Origin: Gemmatimonadaceae bacterium
GTDB lineage: Bacteria; Gemmatimonadota; Gemmatimonadetes; Gemmatimonadales; Gemmatimonadaceae
Direction of reading: 5' to 3'
Length of the DNA: 64,000 nucleotides
Assembly (NCBI GenBank): GCA_036504815.1
Contig: DASXUN010000008.1
Coordinates: 62,001 to 126,000, forward strand
Of the stretch, positions 46,607-64,000 are shown piece by piece (position 1 is the first letter of the stretch; each line of letters starts with the position of its first letter). The notes beneath the pieces were generated by a model that saw only the letters and a list, made by a program, of their open reading frames with translations, ran no database searches and had not been told where the DNA came from. The translations under genes were made by a program, and so were the position numbers.

Positions 46607-48730
46607 CTAGCGCTCGCCGCCCGTGAGACCCCGGTTGGACAGCAGCGGACCAATCACCGGATCACGCCCGCGGAACTCGCGATAGATCGTCGCCATGTCG
46701 CCCGTCCCGCCGCGCGACAGGATGAGGTCGCGGAAGCGCTGGCCGTTGGCCCTCGTCATCCCGCCGTGCTCGAGGAACCAGGCGTACGCGTCGGCGTCGA
46801 TCACTTCGCTCCAGATGTAGGCATAGTAGCCCGCCGAGTAGCCGCCGCCCCAGATATGCGAGAAGTAGTTGGTCTTGTACCGCGGCGGCACGAGCGGCAG
46901 GTCAACCCCGAAGCGCTTGAGCGCCTGCGCCTCGAACGCGTCGACGTCCGTCGGGTGGTCGTTCACCGACAAGGTGTGCCACGCCATGTCGAGCAGCGCC
47001 GCGCCCAGGTATTCCGTGGTCGCGAAACCCTGATCGAACGTTGTCGTGCGCCGGATCTTGGCCTCGAGCGCCGCCGGCATCGGTGCGCCGGTCTGGTAGT
47101 GCCGCGCGTAGTGCGCGAACACCTCGGGGTGCAGCGCCCAATGTTCATTGAATTGCGACGGGACTTCCGTGAAGTCCCGCGGCATGTTCCCCGCGAGCCG
47201 TGGATACGGCGCGGCGTTCATGAAGCTGCTCAGGGCGTGACCGAACTCGTGATACATCGTGGTCACGTTGTCCCACGTCAGCAGCGCCGGCTGGCCGGCG
47301 GCCGGCTTGGTGAAGTTGCAGTTGTTGATCACCACCGGCCGCGTGCCGAGCAGCGCCGAGCGGCTGACGAAGCCGGACGACCAGGCGCCGCCATTCTTGT
47401 TGTCGCGCTTGTAGTAGTCGGCGTAGAACAGGCCGAGCGACGAGTCGGCGTCGAAGACCTCGAAGACGCGCACGTCGGGATGGTAGACCGGAATGTCCTT
47501 CCGTTCCTTGAACGTCAGCCCGTACAGCTGCTGCGCCGCGTAGAAGACGCCGTCGCGCAGCACGCGGTCCATTTCGAAGTACGGCTTGATCTGCTCCTCG
47601 TCCAATGCGTACTGCTCGGCCCGCACCTGCTCGGCGTAGAACTGCCAGTCCCACGGCTCAAGCTTGAAGCCACCGCCCTGCCTGTCCACGAGCTGCTGCA
47701 TGGCCGTGGCCTCGCCCCGCGCCTTCGCGGTCGCCGGCGTCACGAGCTGGGTCAGCAGGCGGAGCGCGTTCTCGGGCGTCTTCGCCATGGTCTCGTCGAG
47801 GCCGTAGGCAGCGAGGGACGGATACCCGAGCAGCTGCGCCCGCTCGGGACGGAGCTGGGCGAGACGCAGGATGACCTGGCGCGTGTCGTTGCTGTCGCCG
47901 CGCGCGGCCCGCATGGTGGACGCTTCAAAGAGCCGCTGTCGCAGCGCGCGGTTCTGCAGTGAGGACTGCGCGGGCTGCTGCGTGGTGTTCTGCAGCGGCA
48001 GGAGCCAGCGCCCCGAGAGGCCGCGGGCCTGGGCGGCGCCCGCTGCTGCCGCGACCTCGCCGGCGCTCAGGCCGGCCAGCTGCCTCACGTCATCCACGAT
48101 GACGCCGCCGGCGCGCGTGGCGGCCAGCAACCGACGGCCGAACTCGTTGGTGAGCGACGCCTGCTCGCGATTGAGCGCGCGCAGCCGCGTCTTGTCGGCG
48201 TCGGACAGCAGGGCCCCGGCGCGCACGAAGTCGCGGTAGTAGCGCTCCACGACAAGGCGCTGCAGCGAGTCGAGACCGAGGCTCGCGCGGCGATCGTAGA
48301 GGCTCTTGATGCGCAGGAAGAGCGTGTCGTTGAGGTTGATCGCATCGCGGTGCGCCGCGAGCTTCGGCGCGAGCGCGCGCTGGATGGCCTGCAGCGTGTC
48401 GTTGGTGTTGGACGACGTGAGCGCGCCGACGACGCGCTGCACGCGCGACAGCAACTGCCCGGAGCGCTCGAACGGCAGGATGGTGTTCGCGAAGGTCGGC
48501 GTGCCCGGCGCGTGAATGATGGCGGCCACTTCGGCCAGTTGCTGGCGCATCCCCTCTTCGATGGCCGGCTGGAAGTCGGTGTTGCGAATGCGCGTGAAGT
48601 CCGGCGCCTGGTACAGCAGCGGACTCGGCGTGGCGAATGGATTGGTGCCCGGCAGCTGCGCGGTGACGACTTCGCTGCAGGCGAGAACGGCAATCCCAAG
48701 GGGGATCGCGAAACGGCGGACGGAGAACAT
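46607..48730 (-). CDS. dcp: Peptidyl-dipeptidase Dcp (M3 family metallopeptidase)
   Basis: 707 residues with a signal peptide ending VVTAQ, so periplasmic or lipoprotein-like form. The zinc motif is TTMYHEFGHALSSFM at about residue 490, with the third ligand E and the PSQFNEHWALHPEVF stretch of the M3 family shortly after. The C-terminal GGYSAGYYAYIWSEVIDAD with the Gly/Tyr-rich substrate loop is typical of Dcp. It removes dipeptides from peptide C-termini. Standalone gene. Confidence 0.93.
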   Translation of the reverse strand: MFSVRRFAIPLGIAVLACSEVVTAQLPGTNPFATPSPLLYQAPDFTRIRNTDFQPAIEEGMRQQLAEVAAIIHAPGTPTFANTILPFERSGQLLSRVQRVVGALTSSNTNDTLQAIQRALAPKLAAHRDAINLNDTLFLRIKSLYDRRASLGLDSLQRLVVERYYRDFVRAGALLSDADKTRLRALNREQASLTNEFGRRLLAATRAGGVIVDDVRQLAGLSAGEVAAAAGAAQARGLSGRWLLPLQNTTQQPAQSSLQNRALRQRLFEASTMRAARGDSNDTRQVILRLAQLRPERAQLLGYPSLAAYGLDETMAKTPENALRLLTQLVTPATAKARGEATAMQQLVDRQGGGFKLEPWDWQFYAEQVRAEQYALDEEQIKPYFEMDRVLRDGVFYAAQQLYGLTFKERKDIPVYHPDVRVFEVFDADSSLGLFYADYYKRDNKNGGAWSSGFVSRSALLGTRPVVINNCNFTKPAAGQPALLTWDNVTTMYHEFGHALSSFMNAAPYPRLAGNMPRDFTEVPSQFNEHWALHPEVFAHYARHYQTGAPMPAALEAKIRRTTTFDQGFATTEYLGAALLDMAWHTLSVNDHPTDVDAFEAQALKRFGVDLPLVPPRYKTNYFSHIWGGGYSAGYYAYIWSEVIDADAYAWFLEHGGMTRANGQRFRDLILSRGGTGDMATIYREFRGRDPVIGPLLSNRGLTGGER

Positions 48731-48808
48731 TGGGGAGACCCGGTGAGCGGAAAGGGACCGGGGGCCGTCTCCCTGAGAATACGATCCGGCGCCCCCTGGC
48801 GACAGCCG

Positions 48809-54180: not shown

Positions 54181-54312
54181 ATCGTATTGTCCTCCCGGAC
54201 GCGTAAAACGTAACCGCGGCGGCCGCGGCGGCAATCGCTAGCCTGATATGGCGTTGCACCCTCCCGAGGCGCCTTCACCGGTGCATCGCCTCCGCCGGTG
54301 GGACGCCGCCAA

Positions 54313-54355
54313 TGGGCCATCAAGGAGTTGAACCTCGGTCGGCAGGCCGATCAGG
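54313..54355 (-). other. Decayed tRNA-Ile(GAU)-like 3' fragment, copy 1
   Basis: Minus strand, 43 bases that align without gaps to the fragment at 59414-59456 (36 of 43 identical by my count): CCTGAT at the anticodon loop, then CCGAGGTTCAACTCCT (T-arm) and GATGGCCCA (acceptor end). The 5' half of a tRNA is missing, so not a functional gene. It sits in a 361-bp gap (54181-54541) that also carries the probable promoter and the GGAGGG ribosome site of the gene at 54542; I see no further gene. Confidence 0.75.
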
Positions 54356-54914: not shown

Positions 54915-55550
54915 ATGATCAGGCGGATTGGCACGGTTGTGATGGCCGCAATCCTCGTCGCGGCGCTCGCAGTTCCACGGAGTTCGCACGCGCAGGCGGC
55001 CGCCCGCAGCGTGGTGTGCAAGGACGGATCTGCAGGCACGGCGGGTCGCGGCGCATGCGGCGGACATGGTGGCGTCGACCCGGTCGCCACCAAGAAGGCT
55101 GAAGACAAGGCAGCGAAGAAGGCCGCAAAGGCCGAGGCCGCAGCCTCGAAGAAGGCCGACAAGGCAGCGGCGGCAAAGCAGGCAGAGAAGGCTGAAGCCG
55201 CGGCGGAGAAGGCCGAGAAGTCGGCCAGGGCTGAGAAGACGGCGAAGGCGGAAGCTGCGGCCAGGGCCGAGAAGTCGGCGAAGGCGGAGGCGGCCGCCAA
55301 GGCTGATAGGTCGGCGAGGTCAGCCAGGGGTGAAGCGCGCGAGAAGTCCGAGCGGGCCGAAGACGCCGAGAAGTCGGCGAACGCGGCGGGCAAGGCGGCC
55401 CGCAGGGCAGCCGACGACGAGAAAGAGCGAGGAGCGGCCACGGCGCGCTGCAAGGACAACACGCTGTCCTACGCCAAGGAGCATACTGGCGCTTGCAGTA
55501 ACCACGGTGGCGTCGCCGAGTGGCTCGACGGACGCGCGAAGAAGCCCTGA
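54915..55550 (+). CDS. Secreted protein with two DUF3761-like motifs around an Ala/Lys-rich helix
   Basis: 211 residues, AGGAGG seven bases before ATG 54915; signal peptide ending SSHAQA. Residues ~35-54 (CKDGSAGTAGRGACGGHGGV) and ~179-201 (CKDNTLSYAKEHTGACSNHG) are two copies of the C-x-D-G..C-x-x-HGG motif of DUF3761. The ~120 residues between are nearly all Ala, Lys, Glu, Arg, Ser with AEKSAKAEAA-like repeats, i.e. a long charged single helix like those in TolA. The base composition of this part is repetitive but the reading frame is intact. Possible periplasmic spacer or cell-wall binding protein. Confidence 0.8.
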   Translation: MIRRIGTVVMAAILVAALAVPRSSHAQAAARSVVCKDGSAGTAGRGACGGHGGVDPVATKKAEDKAAKKAAKAEAAASKKADKAAAAKQAEKAEAAAEKAEKSARAEKTAKAEAAARAEKSAKAEAAAKADRSARSARGEAREKSERAEDAEKSANAAGKAARRAADDEKERGAATARCKDNTLSYAKEHTGACSNHGGVAEWLDGRAKKP

Positions 55551-57064: not shown

Positions 57065-57094
57065 GCCCCGCAACGGCAGAGTCCGTTGCGGGGC
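57065..57094. terminator. Terminator hairpin next to tRNA fragment copy 2
   Basis: GCCCCGCAACGG / CCGTTGCGGGGC, 12-bp stem. On the minus strand it follows the tRNA-like end at 57102 by 7 bases, as a tRNA terminator would, and it also ends the membrane protein gene on the plus strand. A near copy is at 59366. Confidence 0.75.
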
Positions 57095-57101
57095 ATCCGT
57101 A

Positions 57102-57123
57102 TGGGCCATCGAGGAGTTGAACC
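57102..57123 (-). other. tRNA-Ile-like 3' end fragment, copy 2 (22 bases)
   Basis: Minus strand GGTTCAACTCCTCGATGGCC with the following CA; identical to the T-loop-to-acceptor part of the 59414 copy. It breaks off inside the T-arm and continues with unrelated sequence including GCTCACCC-GCA-GGGTGAGC (57136-57154). Not a functional tRNA. Confidence 0.7.
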
Positions 57124-57183
57124 GAAGGAGAGCGAGCTCACCCGCAGGGTGAGCGCAGCTCAACCTCGCCGGGTTTATCCCTC

Positions 57184-57212
57184 TTGACGATATTCGTTGC
57201 AACGTATATTAT
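57184..57212 (+). promoter_or_regulatory. Promoter and dyad operator of the MarR gene
   Basis: -35 TTGACG (57184-57189), 17-bp spacer, -10 TATTAT (57207-57212). The dyad ATAT-T-CGTTGCAACG-T-ATAT (57190-57209) fills the spacer, with CGTTGCAACG a perfect palindrome, the kind of site bound by MarR. The predicted start site falls on the A of the ATG at 57219, i.e. a leaderless mRNA. Confidence 0.75.
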
Positions 57213-57218
57213 TGGGCC

Positions 57219-57701
57219 ATGCCCCATGCCATCGCCCGCGCGATCAAGCAGCAGCGTCCATTCGCGTCGCCTGAACAGGAGGTCATGCTCGGCCTGCGCC
57301 TCGCCGCCGACCGCGTGCTCGACCCCTGGCGGCAGTTCCTCAAGACCACGGCCGATCTCACCAACGGCCAGTACAACGTCCTCCGCATCCTCCGCGGCAG
57401 CCATCCACACAAGCTCACCGCGGGGGAGATCATCGAGCGCATGATCGCGCGCGATCCGGACGTCACACGGCTCGTGGACCGGCTGGTCGCGCGCGGACTC
57501 GTTGAGCGGGAGCGCAGCGAACGCGATCGCCGCGTCGTCGAGACGGGGATCACGCCGGCGGGGCTCGCGTTGCTGGCCGAACTGGATCCGCACGCGAAGC
57601 GCCTGCCGAAGGCCCTCGTCGGCCCGCTTGGCGCCCGTCGCGTGAAGCAACTCGCCACACTGCTCAACGCCCTGATCGAGGAGATGGGCGCCTTTCCCTG
57701 A
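57219..57701 (+). CDS. MarR-family regulator
   Basis: 160 residues. DNA-binding core: LTNGQYNVLRILRGSHPHKL, GEIIERMIARDPDVTRLVDR, then wing LVERERSERDRRVVETGITP. Near RLAADRVLDPWRQFLKTTAD lies the dimer helix. Its promoter overlaps a strong MarR-type dyad, so autorepression is likely; the cupin (46 bp downstream) and the NmrA-like protein are probable co-targets. Confidence 0.9.
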   Translation: MPHAIARAIKQQRPFASPEQEVMLGLRLAADRVLDPWRQFLKTTADLTNGQYNVLRILRGSHPHKLTAGEIIERMIARDPDVTRLVDRLVARGLVERERSERDRRVVETGITPAGLALLAELDPHAKRLPKALVGPLGARRVKQLATLLNALIEEMGAFP

Positions 57702-57747
57702 GCGCGTTCGCAGTCCGCGTATTCCCCCCCAACGCGAGAGCCAGGTC

Positions 57748-58215
57748 ATGACGAGCCAGTACAAAGTGCACGAGCCGGGCGCCGGATTGAGACTGCAGTC
57801 GGGTCCGGGGCGTGATCTCATCTTCAAGGTCACGGGCGAAGACACGCGCGGCGCCTTCGATTACTTCATCGTCGAGGTCGCGCCGCACGGCGGACCACCA
57901 CTGCACGTGCACCATAAGCAGGAAGAGGCGATCCACGTGCTCAAGGGCACGTTCAAGGTACAGATCGGCGAGGAGACTTTTCGCTGCGCGCCCGGGGGAT
58001 TCGCCTACCTGCCCTCCAACGTGCCGCACGCGTTCCTCAACCTGACCGACGAGCCCGCCGAGCTCATCGTCGTCTACACGCCGGGCGGCGGGCACAAGTT
58101 CTATGAAGAGCTTGGGCCGATGACACGCGGTGGAACGCGTGATCCCAAGGCGATCGCCGCGGTGTTCACGAAGTACGACATGACGTTGCTGGGGCCGCCG
58201 CTGAGCGCAGACTGA
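57748..58215 (+). CDS. Cupin-2 domain protein
   Basis: 155 residues. FIVEVAPHGGPPLHVHHKQE is cupin motif 1 (G-x5-H-x-H-x3,4-E) and GGFAYLPSNVPHAFLNLTDE motif 2. The histidines and glutamate should bind a metal ion. Possibly an oxygenase, isomerase or sensor that handles a small compound linked to the MarR regulator. The start ATG at 57748 has GAGAG upstream. Confidence 0.87.
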   Translation: MTSQYKVHEPGAGLRLQSGPGRDLIFKVTGEDTRGAFDYFIVEVAPHGGPPLHVHHKQEEAIHVLKGTFKVQIGEETFRCAPGGFAYLPSNVPHAFLNLTDEPAELIVVYTPGGGHKFYEELGPMTRGGTRDPKAIAAVFTKYDMTLLGPPLSAD

Positions 58216-58357
58216 TGATGCTCGCGGTTCGGGGCATCCGGATCGAACGAACGAACGGACACACGAGCGCTGTCGTCGCGCTCGCCCACTAGCTTGCAGT
58301 CCCCCTGCCCGGCGCGTGAGTCCGGGTCGTTGTCTCACCGGTGCAACGGAGATCCAC

Positions 58358-59308
58358 ATGGCAGCCAAACAGGTCATTGCAGTATTCGGAGCGACGGGCG
58401 CACAGGGCGGCGGTCTCGTGCGCGCCATTGCGGCGGACAAGAACGGGCCGTTCACCGCGCGTGCCATCACGCGCCGGCCGGACTCCGACAAGGCCATGGC
58501 ACTCGCCGCCCTGGGCGTCGAGGTCGTGGCCGGCGACACCGACACCGAAGCGAGTCTCGCGCCGGCGCTCGCCGGGGCGTACGGCGCCTTCTGCGTGACG
58601 AACTACTGGGAGCACTATTCGGCAGAGCGCGAAGGCGTTCAGGCGGCCGCGATGGCGCGCGCCACGAAGCAGGCTGGGGTTCAACACGTCGTCTGGTCGA
58701 CGCTTGAGGATACCCGCAAGTGGATCCCGCTGGGCGACACCCGGCTCCCGACGCTGTACGGGAAGTACAAGTGCCCGCACTTCGACTCGAAGGGGCAGAT
58801 GGACGAGACGTTCGCCAAGGAAGGAGCGCCCACCACATATATGATGGCGGCCTTCTACTGGGACAACTTCATCCATTTCGGGATGGGACCGCGGGCCGGT
58901 GACGATGGCACGCTCACCCTCGCGCTGCCGCTCGGCGGCGTGAACCTCCCCGGCATCGGCGCCGAGGACATCGGCCGCAGCGCGTACGGCATCTTCAGGC
59001 AGGGGACCAGCACGGTGGGCCAGCGCATCGGCGTGGCCGGTGAATCGCTCTCCGGCGCCGACATGGCGGCCAAGATGGGGCGCGCGCTGGGGAAGACCGT
59101 GCGATTCTTCGACATGCCGTTCGACATGTACCGCGGCCTCGGATTCCCAGGCGCTGAAGACCTCGGGAACATGTTCCAGTTCCAGGCCATACTCGGCGAG
59201 GAGTTTCAGCGCTACCGCGACGCCAAACAGACGCGCGAGCTGAATCCGGCGCTCCAGGATTTCGACGCGTGGCTGGCGTCGAACGGATCGAAGATCGCGA
59301 TCAACTGA
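58358..59308 (+). CDS. NmrA-like NAD(P)-binding protein
   Basis: 316 residues from ATG 58358 with GGAG at 8 bases. The Rossmann motif VIAVFGATGAQGGGLVRAIA is the NmrA GATGxxG type, then RAITRRPDSDKAMALAALGV and GAFCVTNYWEHYSAEREGVQ as in HSCARG/NmrA proteins. Such proteins sense the NADPH/NADP ratio or act as quinone or azo reductases. It follows the cupin by 142 bp. Terminator hairpin 58 bp downstream. Confidence 0.87.
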   Translation: MAAKQVIAVFGATGAQGGGLVRAIAADKNGPFTARAITRRPDSDKAMALAALGVEVVAGDTDTEASLAPALAGAYGAFCVTNYWEHYSAEREGVQAAAMARATKQAGVQHVVWSTLEDTRKWIPLGDTRLPTLYGKYKCPHFDSKGQMDETFAKEGAPTTYMMAAFYWDNFIHFGMGPRAGDDGTLTLALPLGGVNLPGIGAEDIGRSAYGIFRQGTSTVGQRIGVAGESLSGADMAAKMGRALGKTVRFFDMPFDMYRGLGFPGAEDLGNMFQFQAILGEEFQRYRDAKQTRELNPALQDFDAWLASNGSKIAIN

Positions 59309-59365
59309 CGGGCGCGCGACGACGTAGCCTGCAAACATCCCGCGCGTTCGAAGCCCCGAACACAC

Positions 59366-59398
59366 AACCCCGCACCGGCACCAAGCCGTTGCGGGGTT
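59366..59398. terminator. Terminator hairpin next to tRNA fragment copy 3
   Basis: AACCCCGCACCGGC (59366-59379) pairs with GCCGTTGCGGGGTT (59385-59398) with one mismatch; TTG-rich flanks on both sides. On the minus strand it follows the tRNA-like end at 59414 by about 15 bases, followed by TTGTGTGTT, so it looks like the original tRNA terminator. Confidence 0.75.
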
Positions 59399-59413
59399 TG
59401 CGTTTGAATCCAG

Positions 59414-59456
59414 TGGGCCATCGAGGAGTTGAACCTCGGACCTCACGCTTATCAGG
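59414..59456 (-). other. 3' part of tRNA-Ile(GAU): probable attachment site of an island
   Basis: Minus strand CCTGATAAGCGTGAGGTCCG, then AGGTTCAACTCCTCGATGGC and CCA: anticodon loop CTGATAA (anticodon GAU), stem GCGTG, variable AGGTC, T-arm CGAGG-TTCAACT-CCTCG, acceptor ATGGCCC-A. The 5' side (GGGGTC) does not complement GCGTG and no D-arm follows, so only the 3' 43 bases are present. Breakage exactly at the anticodon loop is what tyrosine-integrase recombination at a tRNA leaves behind. The intact tRNA should lie further right, beyond 64 kb. Confidence 0.8.
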
Positions 59457-59666
59457 ACCCCGTAAGTGCGCATGAATTGTGCGCGAATGTTCACTTAGTT
59501 CGCGCTGGACGAACATCCTGCTCAGTTTCGCGTGACAATCTGTGCAAGTTGCGCACCTTGGCGAGCATCTTGTGCGCACGAATGGACACCATGAGGTCGT
59601 TAGGTGCTAAGCTGAAGTGCGTCACGAACTGACCTGCGTAGCATCGATGTTGAAGGAGGGAGAATG
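59457..59666. other. Non-coding left end of the island
   Basis: Together with 59309-59456 this makes a 358-bp gap. It contains several GTGCGCA/CGAATG words (for example TGCGCATGAATTGTGCGCGA and GTGCGCACGAATGGACACC), which may be binding sites for a recombinase or just remnants. A minus frame of 33 codons (59491-59592) is open but shows no known motif. I do not see an integrase gene. Confidence 0.4.
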
Positions 59667-62600
59667 CTACACTCCGAGTGTCTCTTGTATGCGCGTCGTT
59701 ACGTCGCTGACCGCTACCATGTCGAGCCCTTCAACTTCGGAGGTCGTGAAGAGGTTCGTGCCCTCAAACCAGCCATTCTTCTCATACCAGGTCTTCTTCC
59801 ATTCCCACGCCCGCCTGTAGTCGTCTCGCTGCATCATCCCCAAGTGTTCCCAGATGATGATATCTCCCGCGTCGTCGACGAAGGAGAAGTCGGGCCGAAG
59901 CCGTCCCGGTGCCTGCGTGCCATCGAGCGGTCTCTCGTAAGCGTAATTGAGGCCTGTCCGAAAGAGATGATTCGCGATAACAAGTTCGGATTTGCTCCGA
60001 ACCATCTCTCCCCGACTGGTCCTGTGGATTAAGTGCTCGGCATAGGGGACTCCGTCCAGTTCGCGACGGACTCCCGCACTGAATAGGTTGGAGTTCCTTC
60101 GTGCGGTTTCCGACCGTTCGGGTCTGGTTAGGTCATACAGGAAACTCGCGTCAGTTCCCTCCACGAACAGAACCATGTGACGTTTTGCACGCGTGAGCGC
60201 GGTGTACAGCAACTCGCGCGACATGAGGCGACAGTGCTTGGGAAGCACGACAAATACTGTACCGAACTCGCTGCCCTGCGACTTGTGTACCGTCAGTGCA
60301 TACGCGAGTTCGAGTGGGGCTGCGCCGTCCCGAAAGCCCCTTGCCGAGAAGCCAAATCTTACATCAGGTCTGCCGGCAAACGCGACGTTCAGGAATTTCT
60401 TCCTAGCTTCGCCCGACGCTGGAGCAGCGACGCCGATCTCGCCGTTGGCCAGATATTCTGAGACCGGCTCTTTCGCCGCGCCGTCCCATCCCTTTTGAGT
60501 GCCATTGCGAACTAGGATGACTTTGTCTCCCCACACAATCTGCTCATCGCCGAGACTGAGCCCTCCCCGTTCCTGCACGACCCTCAACTGCTCAGCGCGG
60601 AAGCGTCGTTGAAGAAGGCGATTCAGATCATACACTCCGTACGGATGAAGGCGTACCGGAGACAGAATCTGAAACCGCTCCGCACCGTCATGATCTGCGA
60701 ACGGTACCCAGCCTTCAGGAGTTAGGCCCAGGGCAGCGTTGAAGCCCTTCACGTCGGTCGGCCCGACCAGCCCGAGCTGCGCCACCATCTGCTCGTCTAG
60801 CCGCTGACGAAGCTCTCCAGGGCTCTGCCAGAAGACAACAGAAAGGTCGTTCAACGCGGCGCCGAGTTCTAGGTCACTGAGGACTCGGTCGGCGTCCACT
60901 GGTTGCAACTCTCGCGTATACCAAGAGGCAAGTCGCAGGGAATCGGACGGCGCTCCTGCCGCCGTTCGGAGTTCGACCGTGAGGCGTGCGAGCGCTTGCC
61001 CGTTAGCGTCGTTCTTCTCACGCAAAGAATCGAGATGCGCAACGAGATCGGCGAAGGGTCGACCCACGCCGATGGGCGGTAGCTGGTTCGGGTCGCCAAC
61101 GAGTATGATCCTCTGAACATGCCCTAGATCGAGAGCGGATAGCACGGCGTAGAGGTCGTCGAGGGTGAGCATGGAGCACTCGTCGATCACAACCGTCGTC
61201 TCCTTGCGGTAGGTGCTCGCCCCGACGAATAGCGGTCTCTGCCGCAGGCCGTCGTAGCGACCTAGCTGATTCAGGAACTGCGCTACAGTCATCGCGGTTT
61301 GGTTCGTCTTCTGGGTCAGACGAACACGGGCCTTACCTGTTGGGGCTAGGAACAGGATGCCACTGTTTGCAAGCTGTTTTGACTTCAGTAGAGCGCCCAA
61401 CACGGTCGTCTTGCCGGTTCCTGCTCTCCCAACAAGCGCCGTCAATCGGCGACTGGTCACAGTCTTCAGGGCAGCCGCTTGTTCAGCAAGAGCTTGGCGG
61501 TGCCGTGGACTGTGCGCATCAACGCTTCCGCCGCCCTCGGTGATCGACTCAACTATTAGGCGTTCCCAGTCCTCGTCCGGTGACGGAATTCCCTTTTCCG
61601 AGCGCCTCGACAGTAGCGATGATAGCTTCGCTTCACGGCGCTCAATCTCATCAAGCTGCAAACACGGCAACCGAGCGTCCGTAGGCTCGCCGGCGATTAC
61701 GGACAAGACCCTGATCTCTTCTGCAAGAGGTCCCTCGTTACCGGCTAGCCAATCTGAACTTACAACGCACGGGTGCGCGAGATTGAGTGACCCGAGTCGC
61801 CCCAACGCCTCAGGCTGGCTCAGCAATGCATCGCCGTCGGCGGCGGCCCTTCGCAGCACCGTCACGAGCGCGCCGCGCACACGACGCCAATCACTTGGCG
61901 AGCCAACTGCTGACGGTTCGTCGACTGGATGCCTCGCCGCAATGGTTACATCAGGCATCAGCCCTCGGTCCACTACGCCCATCGAGACCGGTTGCTCGCG
62001 CTCATCACCAAGGTCGAGTTCGACGATGCGGTACGGATTCGCGAGAATAGCGGCGTCGTCCACCGAGGTTCTACTGGACTTCTGTCTTTCTATTGGGTTG
62101 AACCACCGCGTTGCTTGGCGCGGGCTCAGGTTAATGCGCGACAGAAGTGTAAGGAGCGAGCGGCGTTCTGCTGACAGCTGGACCCAGGTCGCTCTCACTG
62201 CCTTCAGGTCTGCGGCGTACGCCTGCTGTGGCGGTGGCTGTGTGCCTCGCAGAATGGCGTCTAGTATGGGCCACGGATTATCGCCGCTCCTGACAGCGCC
62301 TCCGGCACATAACTCCAGAAACAGCGAGGTGCCGAGGCGCATTCCAAAGGCCTCAAGAGCCGCTCCCGTTCCAGGAAAGGCACCGCGATCCGTCCAAGCG
62401 CGCGCAATTTGCGCGTTGAGCCATTCTTCCCGCTGTTGCCACGGGCCTGGTGCGACCCCATGCGCGCGAATCTTTCTGACCGCCTCCAAACACTGCACTA
62501 GAGTCGAGAGTGTTACGTCAGCTGTTGATAGCGCCCCCGCATACGAAAACGACATGATGTCGCTCGAGTCTGGTACAACAGCTATTTCCCGCAGTAGAGA

Positions 62601-63353
62601 AGCGCGACGCTCGTCTTCCGCGGGGTCATCGGTGGGGGTGAGATAGTCGTGATACGGAAGTAGAAAGCCGTCGTGGCCAGTCGGTCGGATAGAGTGGCCG
62701 AACTGTCGGTCCCACAAGGGATATGAGAAGGGTCCGGTAGAGTCATACCATTGCAATGGGGCGATCGTCGTAATCGTGCCGACGCCGACGACCAGACGGC
62801 CGATAGTCTCTCCGAGCGGATGCCCGCTCTTGGTATAGAAGGAGACGAGCGAAGAGCCGGGCGTTAGTCGACTGAAGAAGAGTTCGCAGAGAGCCTCCTG
62901 CCGCTCGCGGCCGAACACCCAGGGGCTGTAGAAAGGCGGTTCCTGGTCTGGTGGAAGAGTATCCGCGATCTCCTCATCGATCCGCGCTTGACTCTCACGG
63001 AGCATCCAGTTGAACGGGACTGCGAACGAAGAGAAGGGACTCACCCGTATCTGGGTTTGTCGAAGATGGCCGTGAGTCTGCTGCGTCGATCTGCTGTTCT
63101 GATAAGGATGTTGCACCACGCGCCACCATTCATGCGCGTTCATAAATGCCGCTGACTCCGCTCGGCAGGGCGGAAGACTGGTCGGCTCGAGGTCTGCGAA
63201 CGAGCGCCCCGACACGGCATCCTCGGCTGTCTCATCGCGCTCTAGCCGAATACGATCGAGATCAACGCAGAACGCATTGGCAGATGGCTTAAGGCATACC
63301 GATCCGTTCCAGCGATTATCATGCCACGCGACTCGCACATTGAGATGATTCAA
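59667..63353 (-). CDS. RecD-like SF1 helicase with C-terminal PD-(D/E)xK-like nuclease domain
   Basis: 1228 residues, TTG start at 63353 (overlapping the small gene's TGA) with GAGG eight bases upstream. An N-terminal ~600-residue part begins NVRVAWHDNRWNGSVCLKPS and has no recognised fold. Helicase motifs: ALVGRAGTGKTTVLGALLK (Walker A, ~644), TVVIDECSMLTLDDLYAVL (~720), RIILVGDPNQLPPIGVGRP, ELAYALTVHKSQGSEFGTVF (~1020) and YTALTRAKRHMVLFVEG. The end RLRPDFSFVDDAGDIIIWEH, LGMMQRDDYRRAWEWKKTWY resembles a PD-(D/E)xK nuclease core. Lower GC than the rest of the window. Possible roles: anti-phage helicase-nuclease or island DNA processing. Confidence 0.85.
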   Translation of the reverse strand: MNHLNVRVAWHDNRWNGSVCLKPSANAFCVDLDRIRLERDETAEDAVSGRSFADLEPTSLPPCRAESAAFMNAHEWWRVVQHPYQNSRSTQQTHGHLRQTQIRVSPFSSFAVPFNWMLRESQARIDEEIADTLPPDQEPPFYSPWVFGRERQEALCELFFSRLTPGSSLVSFYTKSGHPLGETIGRLVVGVGTITTIAPLQWYDSTGPFSYPLWDRQFGHSIRPTGHDGFLLPYHDYLTPTDDPAEDERRASLLREIAVVPDSSDIMSFSYAGALSTADVTLSTLVQCLEAVRKIRAHGVAPGPWQQREEWLNAQIARAWTDRGAFPGTGAALEAFGMRLGTSLFLELCAGGAVRSGDNPWPILDAILRGTQPPPQQAYAADLKAVRATWVQLSAERRSLLTLLSRINLSPRQATRWFNPIERQKSSRTSVDDAAILANPYRIVELDLGDEREQPVSMGVVDRGLMPDVTIAARHPVDEPSAVGSPSDWRRVRGALVTVLRRAAADGDALLSQPEALGRLGSLNLAHPCVVSSDWLAGNEGPLAEEIRVLSVIAGEPTDARLPCLQLDEIERREAKLSSLLSRRSEKGIPSPDEDWERLIVESITEGGGSVDAHSPRHRQALAEQAAALKTVTSRRLTALVGRAGTGKTTVLGALLKSKQLANSGILFLAPTGKARVRLTQKTNQTAMTVAQFLNQLGRYDGLRQRPLFVGASTYRKETTVVIDECSMLTLDDLYAVLSALDLGHVQRIILVGDPNQLPPIGVGRPFADLVAHLDSLREKNDANGQALARLTVELRTAAGAPSDSLRLASWYTRELQPVDADRVLSDLELGAALNDLSVVFWQSPGELRQRLDEQMVAQLGLVGPTDVKGFNAALGLTPEGWVPFADHDGAERFQILSPVRLHPYGVYDLNRLLQRRFRAEQLRVVQERGGLSLGDEQIVWGDKVILVRNGTQKGWDGAAKEPVSEYLANGEIGVAAPASGEARKKFLNVAFAGRPDVRFGFSARGFRDGAAPLELAYALTVHKSQGSEFGTVFVVLPKHCRLMSRELLYTALTRAKRHMVLFVEGTDASFLYDLTRPERSETARRNSNLFSAGVRRELDGVPYAEHLIHRTSRGEMVRSKSELVIANHLFRTGLNYAYERPLDGTQAPGRLRPDFSFVDDAGDIIIWEHLGMMQRDDYRRAWEWKKTWYEKNGWFEGTNLFTTSEVEGLDMVAVSDVTTRIQETLGV

Positions 63354-63520
63354 CGGATTGGCCTCAGTTCGAGAAACACCCCGGATCGCGGCTCGCTTCG
63401 AGCCGTGGCGAAGTTGTATCCGCCGCGACGAACGAAAGCGTCCGCACTGCTGCGGCGCTCTTCGGTCGTTACATCATTGCGCACTATTCCAACTTTTCGG
63501 AGGCGCTTGGGGGCAGTCAT
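63350..63520 (-). CDS. Small basic protein gene overlapping the helicase start
   Basis: 56 codons from ATG 63520 to TGA 63350-63352; the TGA overlaps the TTG start of the helicase in a TTGA junction, so the two would be translationally coupled. The product begins MTAPKRLRKVGIVRNDVTTE and is Arg-rich (about a dozen Arg/Lys). An in-frame stop lies a few codons upstream of the ATG, which fixes the start. No known family is evident; no clear ribosome site. It could be a regulatory partner or just a leader peptide. Between it and the PIN-like gene is 165 bp without a gene I can support. Confidence 0.45.
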   Translation of the reverse strand: MTAPKRLRKVGIVRNDVTTEERRSSADAFVRRGGYNFATARSEPRSGVFLELRPIR

Positions 63521-63685
63521 GGCTGAGGCTAAGGTCGATCAATCGAGATCCGATTGTCCGGCCTACTTTCACATGAGCAGCTCCGAGGACCTCGAAACGC
63601 GAACGTGCGCGCCACCGCCGCTTGAATCGAAGCTCTCTGCCTGACGCGAACGATGCTGGCTCACGCCTCTGTGGGCACTTCAGGT

Positions 63686-64000
63686 TCATCGTACTACTTC
63701 GGGATAGATCTGCCTCGGAGTCTTGCAAGACTTTGCAAGGTGGAAGCCAAAGCCTCGCGGATGTTGGCGGGCTTTCATCAGGATGCTTGGAAAGAACCCG
63801 AGAAGCGCTTCTGCCTGCTTCGCACGCGGCTCGCGTGGCCACGGCTCCCCGAGGAAGAACGCAGTCAAACCGGATTCATGCCAGGCCCGCCTGTTCGCTG
63901 GGTGTGTGCTGATCCTCGAGTCACCAGAGATGATGATCCAGTCTCCTTCCTGTGCCAATTCTGAGATCCAATTCGGATCCGGAGTGTCTGCAGGAAACCG
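63686..64000 (-). CDS. PIN-like (VapC45-type) protein, partial
   Basis: The frame is open to the right edge, so the N-terminus is outside the window. The 104 visible residues include FPADTPDPNWISELAQEGDW, IIISGDSRISTHPANRRAWH and SGLTAFFLGEPWPREPRAKQ. The pattern of D in 'PDPNW', WxxISGDxRI and the late FFL strand is that of the PIN-like/DUF5615 VapC45 group, RNases of toxin-antitoxin or defence loci. Reads towards the helicase and is in the same low-GC segment. An antitoxin should lie just upstream if it is a toxin. Confidence 0.65.
   Translation of the reverse strand, partial: RFPADTPDPNWISELAQEGDWIIISGDSRISTHPANRRAWHESGLTAFFLGEPWPREPRAKQAEALLGFFPSILMKARQHPRGFGFHLAKSCKTPRQIYPEVVR

Follow-up and report, generated by a model that had tools for sequence, protein, structure and literature searches.

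A RecD-type helicase with a nuclease-like C-terminus in a tRNA-Ile-bounded cassette: a catalogued defence candidate, PDC-S68, with a possible modified-base reader

A small cassette that was acquired horizontally at a tRNA gene of a Gemmatimonadota bacterium carries a full-length member of the catalogued defence candidate PDC-S68, here called S68, which is probably an anti-phage protein. The defence reading is well supported by the sporadic distribution of the family and its defence-rich neighbourhoods. For its mode of action we favour, with confidence just short of even, a single-chain, ATP-dependent and modification-dependent (type IV-like) anti-phage restriction enzyme that is delivered by a tRNA-bounded cassette. 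An N-terminal EVE/YTH-like domain of the PUA superfamily would flip and sense a modified base in incoming DNA, which would license the RecD2-type 5'-3' helicase motor, in its loading and then in ATP-driven translocation; the PD-(D/E)XK-like nuclease at the C-terminus would cut the DNA. Like many catalogued defence candidates, PDC-S68 comes without a proposed mechanism, and reading it as reader, motor and nuclease makes a direct test possible.

Results and Discussion

The window that was analysed is a 64-kb stretch of contig C8 (G000:C8:62001-126000), and its features are collected in Table 1. The downstream end of the S68 cassette is a copy of the tRNA-Ile 3' end, which on the minus strand shows one mismatch to the last 44 nt of tRNA-Ile(GAT) where shuffled sequence is expected to give 0 matches, and the exact tRNA end that a sequence-only reading had placed before 59457 is thus real. 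An intact tRNA gene was not found by ARAGORN in the 64-kb window, boundary included, an Rfam search at E<=1 gave no match, and the intact tRNA-Ile lies on another contig of the same genome (G000:C3:282675-282750). The shift in base composition and codon use described in the same reading could also be confirmed, with a mean GC of 68.3% in 4-kb blocks left of the cassette (sd 1.5, minimum 65.9) against 59.2% in the cassette, and a GC3 that drops from 0.83-0.86 in the MarR, cupin and NmrA genes to 0.63-0.66 in the S68, PIN and HTH genes. Following the sequence beyond 64 kb, as had been proposed, completed the PIN gene to 64099 and revealed a further tRNA-Ile end at 65062-65105 (L005:1062-1105), in addition to those at 57101-57123 (23 bp) and 54312-54355. 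Terminator-like hairpins of the CCCCGCAACGG..CCGTTGCGGGG type look alike after several of these 3' ends (59386-59412 and 57083-57100), and the modules therefore seem to carry their own tRNA terminator.

Table 1: Features of the S68 cassette, its hotspot and related modules (positions are those of the window unless a contig or locus is named).
Feature	Position	Strand	Basis
Conserved chromosomal anchor gene	46616..48775	-	87% protein identity to L079, which starts with a tRNA end
Diverged tRNA-Ile 3' end, border of a further module	54312..54355	-	7 mismatches/44
Older neighbouring module (MarR, cupin, NmrA genes; 23-bp core remnant 57101-57123)	57101..59412	.	repeat family D3; Pfam
tRNA-Ile 3' end copy (attachment core), downstream end of the S68 cassette	59413..59456	-	43/44 identical to intact tRNA-Ile
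Attachment-site arm region beside the core	59457..59636	-	alignment A6; nhmmer E 1e-39 to 1e-73
S68, 1228 aa, TTG start	59667..63353	-	PADLOC PDC-S68 full-length match
S68 parts, N-terminal half	residues ~1-300 EVE/YTH-like (tentative); 300-470 helical; 480-620 RecD N-domain/winged helix		
S68 parts, C-terminal half	residues 623-1065 RecD2-like SF1B helicase; 1105-1228 PD-(D/E)XK-like nuclease		
PIN_10 toxin-like gene	63686..64000 (complete 63686-64099, GTG start, 137 aa)	-	PF18478 E 4.4e-14
Integrative element behind tRNA-Ile	G000:C3:282675-286486 (L006:12675-16486) + L005:1106-12303		
Congener modules with the same attachment regions at the same site	L071:8318-11932; L072:1050-2964; L074:9105-9334		

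The same site is differently occupied in congeners. G001 has an empty site, where the counterpart of window 48.7-46.6 kb (87% identity) comes immediately after the tRNA-Ile 3' end; this is the anchor gene, which is also present in G004 (86%) and G010 (80%). In G010 the junction homologous to 54312-54355 and the homologue of 54.35-52.1 kb come immediately after the intact tRNA-Ile, ahead of other cargo and the same anchor, and in G004 the counterparts of 56.9-55.6 kb and of the anchor lie behind three tRNA ends. Everything from the tRNA to ~48.8 kb is thus variable. The island had been taken to begin at 59457, and while this boundary exists it is not the start, since the empty site of G001 and the extra tRNA-Ile ends show that the stretch left of 59413 was inserted too. 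The 57-59 kb part is an older, GC-rich module nearer to host composition, and its NmrA, cupin and MarR genes, once considered as part of the defence, were dropped as belonging to a separate module. Just inside the 54.3-57.1 kb module (55082-55388) we also observed degenerate direct repeats of 9 and 18 nt, which seem to encode a Lys/Ala/Glu-rich, histone H1-like stretch.

The S68 cassette itself measures 5.6 kb and holds three recognisable genes, namely S68, PIN_10 and an HTH_66 gene (64096-64794), none of them an integrase. It is bounded by a region of ~190 bp that occurs together with the tRNA core in equal orientation at 59403-59636 and 65052-65286. The arm region was found at 8 sites in four genomes, where it bounds unrelated cargo, and the same attachment regions enclose other modules in the congeners G004, G005 and G003, with a Fic gene in G004 and a RES-domain gene or a 273-aa protein without Pfam match in G005. 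Cis-mobilizable elements (CIMEs) are elements that have lost their integration and transfer genes and retain both att sites (PMC5704250), and the S68 cassette likewise retains attL and attR without integrase or transfer genes.

A candidate for the missing integrase lies directly after the intact tRNA-Ile on contig C3, where a tyrosine integrase is followed by HTH genes, an SSB and a replication initiator. This initiator is of rolling-circle type; its homologue in G005 matches REP_ORF2-G2P and weakly RepSA of pSAM2, and the integrases of both G000 and G005 match PF00589. A single contig of G005 spans the matches to both contig ends (L073 against L006 and the end of L005), which makes it very probable that C3 and C8 meet at a homopolymer run and are parts of one element. 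This element also holds a type IIG restriction-modification (RM) gene (E 2.6e-253) and an HKD-Snf2 helicase (E 1e-51). Ahead of the integrase start in G000, at a distance of 19-63 bp, part of the arm region is found again (L006:14063-14107, E 1.8e-4), and so it is upstream of the integrase in a second species, G005 (L073:9134-9175, E 0.012), which ties the tRNA-Ile integrase to the attachment regions of the cassette. From this we infer that the S68 cassette is probably excised and inserted by this integrase in a CIME-like manner. What is new here is a cassette that lacks an integrase and shares its attachment regions with other modules, and this explains how single genes that bring no integrase of their own can enter and leave a tRNA hotspot. 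The location of the motif upstream of the integrase start in two species looks as if the integrase might bind its own promoter as well.

S68 matches PADLOC PDC-S68 with 1394.5 bits (E=0, residues 1-1221 to profile 5-1217 of 1221), which covers the entries PDLC05064/05065/05066 of PADLOC-DB 2.0, for which the catalogue gives no description; PDC stands for phage defence candidate (PMC11514479). The layout, which the sequence-only reading had not recognised as any named system, is by this profile match already catalogued, as S68 is an end-to-end member of the family. Our literature search for PDC-S68 gave no paper naming the family and no published mechanism, and searches for RecD-like defence and for EVE with RecD gave no paper either.

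The prediction of a huge RecD-like helicase held. Pfam recognises AAA_30 and UvrD_C_2 only (residues 623-1062), and the best structural match of residues 480-1065 is RecD2 3e1s (Z 29.9, rmsd 3.7, 486 aligned), with a Z of 23.8 to the RecD fold. Walker A and B and motifs III, V and VI are present within this RecD2-like fold, as in SF1B helicases of RecD type. G647-T649, D724-E725, Q757, H1023-G1027 and R1055 do not vary among 11-16 diverse homologues, which come from Alphaproteobacteria, Actinomycetota, Bacteroidota, Gammaproteobacteria and a phage-labelled contig. S68 stays below the curated NCBIfam cut-offs for RecD2 (195 vs 500 bits) and RecD (145.7 vs 310.15 bits), for which reason an assignment as RecBCD or RecD2 repair protein was dropped. 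It shares with RecD2 and RecD the SF1B core including the RecD N-domain and differs from them by ~470 additional N-terminal residues and the C-terminal nuclease-like domain.

The latter, also anticipated, carries the conserved motif RSKSE..YE..PDF..EH(L/W)G..K, and within residues 1105-1228 E1123, E1140, D1155 (of PDF), E1169-H1170 and K1186 are invariant. The model shows the alpha-beta-beta-beta-alpha-beta order of PD-(D/E)XK nucleases, and a search of this part against the PDB gave no sequence match. Because the canonical lysine two residues past the motif glutamate is missing (E1169-H1170-L1171), nuclease activity of this PD-(D/E)XK-like domain is likely but not certain; the invariant K1186 may stand in for the lysine.

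Residues 1-620 have no Pfam family at E<=1, in agreement with the N-terminal half having been called unrecognised and with no sequence match to a housekeeping family. Likewise, none of the 16 S68 members examined matches Pfam EVE (PF01878) at E<=1. The AlphaFold model of this part is good (mean pLDDT 85.1, pTM 0.85), and the structure search that had been suggested gave a divided answer. Foldseek against PDB and BFVD produced no match at E<=0.001, while among the 50 PDB matches listed all those aligning to residues 1-296 are PUA-superfamily readers (rmsd 3.2-4.9, 115-130 aligned) at Z 4.8-6.9, in a range below 8 that can reflect a common arrangement and with Z values that re-score Foldseek's own ranking and so are not independent of it. 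They include the YTH domain of Mmi1 (Z 6.9, rmsd 3.2, 122 aligned), the EVE proteins PH1033 (Z 6.5, rmsd 4.9, 122 aligned) and MJECL36 (Z 6.1, rmsd 4.9, 121 aligned) and the EVE-HNH restriction enzyme VcaM4I (Z 5.9, rmsd 3.9, 130 aligned). Foldseek rows for yeast RNA Pol III and Smc5/6 were set aside as being of low probability and large rmsd.

An independent HMM-HMM comparison of residues 160-300 with 28 EVE proteins gave E 0.009-0.012 and pairs SLVSFYTK/VVGVGTI of S68 with GDRVLYYHS/VAGIAEV of EVE. Controls with other S68 segments and reversed alignments scored lower (best control E 0.056), 4 of 450 trials with shuffled columns came up to the observed score, and the comparison over the whole domain was weaker (E 0.026). 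A poor alignment of 10 EVE sequences had given no signal and was replaced by that of 28. Taken together these models and alignments suggest, tentatively but with a fair balance in favour, that residues ~1-300 adopt an EVE/YTH-like reader fold. H3, W10, H11, D12, C20, C29 and C63 are conserved in this part of the homologues. EVE and YTH are domains that bind modified bases; the one in VcaM4I, of EVE type, flips 5mC or 5hmC (PMC7897488). Within the phylum genomes the N-terminus occurs only in full S68 proteins or pieces of them, and on viral contigs in S68, in cut-off frames and in one 134-aa frame (L299:6001-6402) that holds only the first ~63 residues of the domain and could be a remnant or a frameshift.

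The N-terminus of S68 was found in 7 of 395 genomes of the phylum and in 0 other genomes of the genus. A single-sequence scan of the genome contigs gave no S68 relatives, which were recovered with an alignment as query. The nearest homologue is a remnant of the last 251 residues (976-1226, 71% identical; L085:4902-5852), adjoining tRNA-Leu in a genome of another family of the same order. S68 is also present on plasmids and virus-labelled contigs, and it lies beside a type ISP RM on Paracoccus p7, a type I RM on a Bartonella plasmid and SNF2 and a methyltransferase on a Hymenobacter plasmid; the locus on a Vibrio plasmid has no annotated RM neighbour. The 68 neighbours of S68 match 220 PADLOC families (DrmD, HKD+Snf2, type I RM and others; E<=1e-15), compared with 29 for 68 neighbours of housekeeping-type RecD2 at the same threshold, counts in which one protein can match many related models, the families are not independent and the two sets are unmatched in lineage and gene length. 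A defence-type island at a tRNA site, as proposed from the sequence, is therefore supported, and the sparse occurrence and plasmid carriage differ from what homologues in mainly core positions would give.

The PIN-like gene beside the helicase was confirmed as PIN_10, and its overlap of 4 nt (64096-64099) with the adjacent HTH gene, which matches PF21321 HTH_66, gives the arrangement of a toxin-antitoxin pair as judged from domains and gene order. Helicase and PIN had been read as one combination, which we do not follow, as the annotation of the plasmids examined shows no PIN gene next to S68 and the PIN gene here probably forms a toxin-antitoxin couple with HTH outside the S68 machine. This pair would act as a separate stabiliser.

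RecD-type motors act from DNA ends, and Shedu, Gabija and Nhi are thought to sense DNA ends, recombination intermediates or a phage protein. S68 might accordingly be an anti-phage helicase-nuclease whose N-terminus, instead of reading base modification, senses one of these or licenses the loading of the RecD motor, an explanation that we hold to be possible at well below even confidence. It would suit the conserved N-terminal H, C, W and D residues, which could coordinate a metal or belong to another kind of active centre, and it gains from the values of Z 5-7 and HMM E about 0.01 on which the reader fold rests, but the top structural matches of residues 1-296 all fall into one superfamily of modified-base readers, a restriction enzyme included. 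Modification-dependent restriction by S68, considered for itself, we judge to be an evenly balanced inference.

It is improbable that S68 merely serves as accessory nuclease-helicase of adjacent restriction or DISARM/BREX-like systems. The frequent methyltransferases and the RM genes on the plasmids named above, the DrmD-like and HKD-Snf2 families among its neighbours, and the type IIG RM and HKD-Snf2 in the next module at this locus would all fit such a role; the partners, however, vary from locus to locus, some loci such as that on the Vibrio plasmid have no RM neighbour annotated, and here S68 has its own cassette with an attachment region between it and the RM genes. A direct role as DISARM or BREX component was dropped, as no full system lies beside S68 at this locus. 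Very improbable is a RecD2-like DNA-repair helicase carried in the island by chance and outside defence, for which the RecD2-like half of the protein speaks, and against which stand the missed RecD2 and RecD cut-offs, the sporadic distribution, the defence neighbours and the carriage on plasmids and virus-labelled contigs.

Conclusion

In summary the family of S68 was already a catalogued candidate, and new are the tentative modified-base reader and with it a testable mechanism. We consider it possible, at a confidence clearly short of even, that PDC-S68 is a new architecture of modification-dependent restriction, in which a single chain combines a base-flipping EVE/YTH-like reader, a RecD motor and a PD-(D/E)XK nuclease. 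It would be spread by cassettes without an integrase, which use the tRNA-Ile attachment regions of one common integrase in an integron-like array of defence and toxin genes. If true, this would be a new enzyme design for the destruction of modified phage DNA, and the small set of known ATP-driven type IV designs would gain a RecD motor.

The predicted logic resembles that of SauUSI, in which the sensor for modified bases, the helicase-like motor driven by ATP and the nuclease also belong to one chain, without homology being claimed; SauUSI uses a PLD-type nuclease (PMC3874153), whereas in S68 the motor is an SF1B helicase of RecD type, the nuclease is PD-(D/E)XK-like and the front is EVE/YTH-like. 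McrBC is a proposed functional counterpart, in place of whose motor S68 has that of RecD. VcaM4I and other EVE-HNH enzymes and the YTH-McrB of Thermococcus likewise join an N-terminal PUA-superfamily domain to nuclease machinery (PMC7897488, PMC7641849), but do so without a RecD motor, and the word 'RecD' does not occur in the EVE census paper; the S68 domain differs from EVE enzymes by a large insertion (about residues 12-160) and by its lack of a Pfam EVE match. With regard to mobility, the cassette is similar to cis-mobilizable elements (PMC5704250) and to the tandem ssrA islands of Dehalococcoides (PMC3146451), in which cargo that lacks an integrase is flanked by direct repeats of an RNA gene's 3' end and stacked behind an integrase-bearing element. 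In contrast to both, a tyrosine integrase and tRNA-Ile are involved here, a ~190-bp arm marks the module ends and recurs in part upstream of the integrase gene, and several of the cargoes are defence- or toxin-like.
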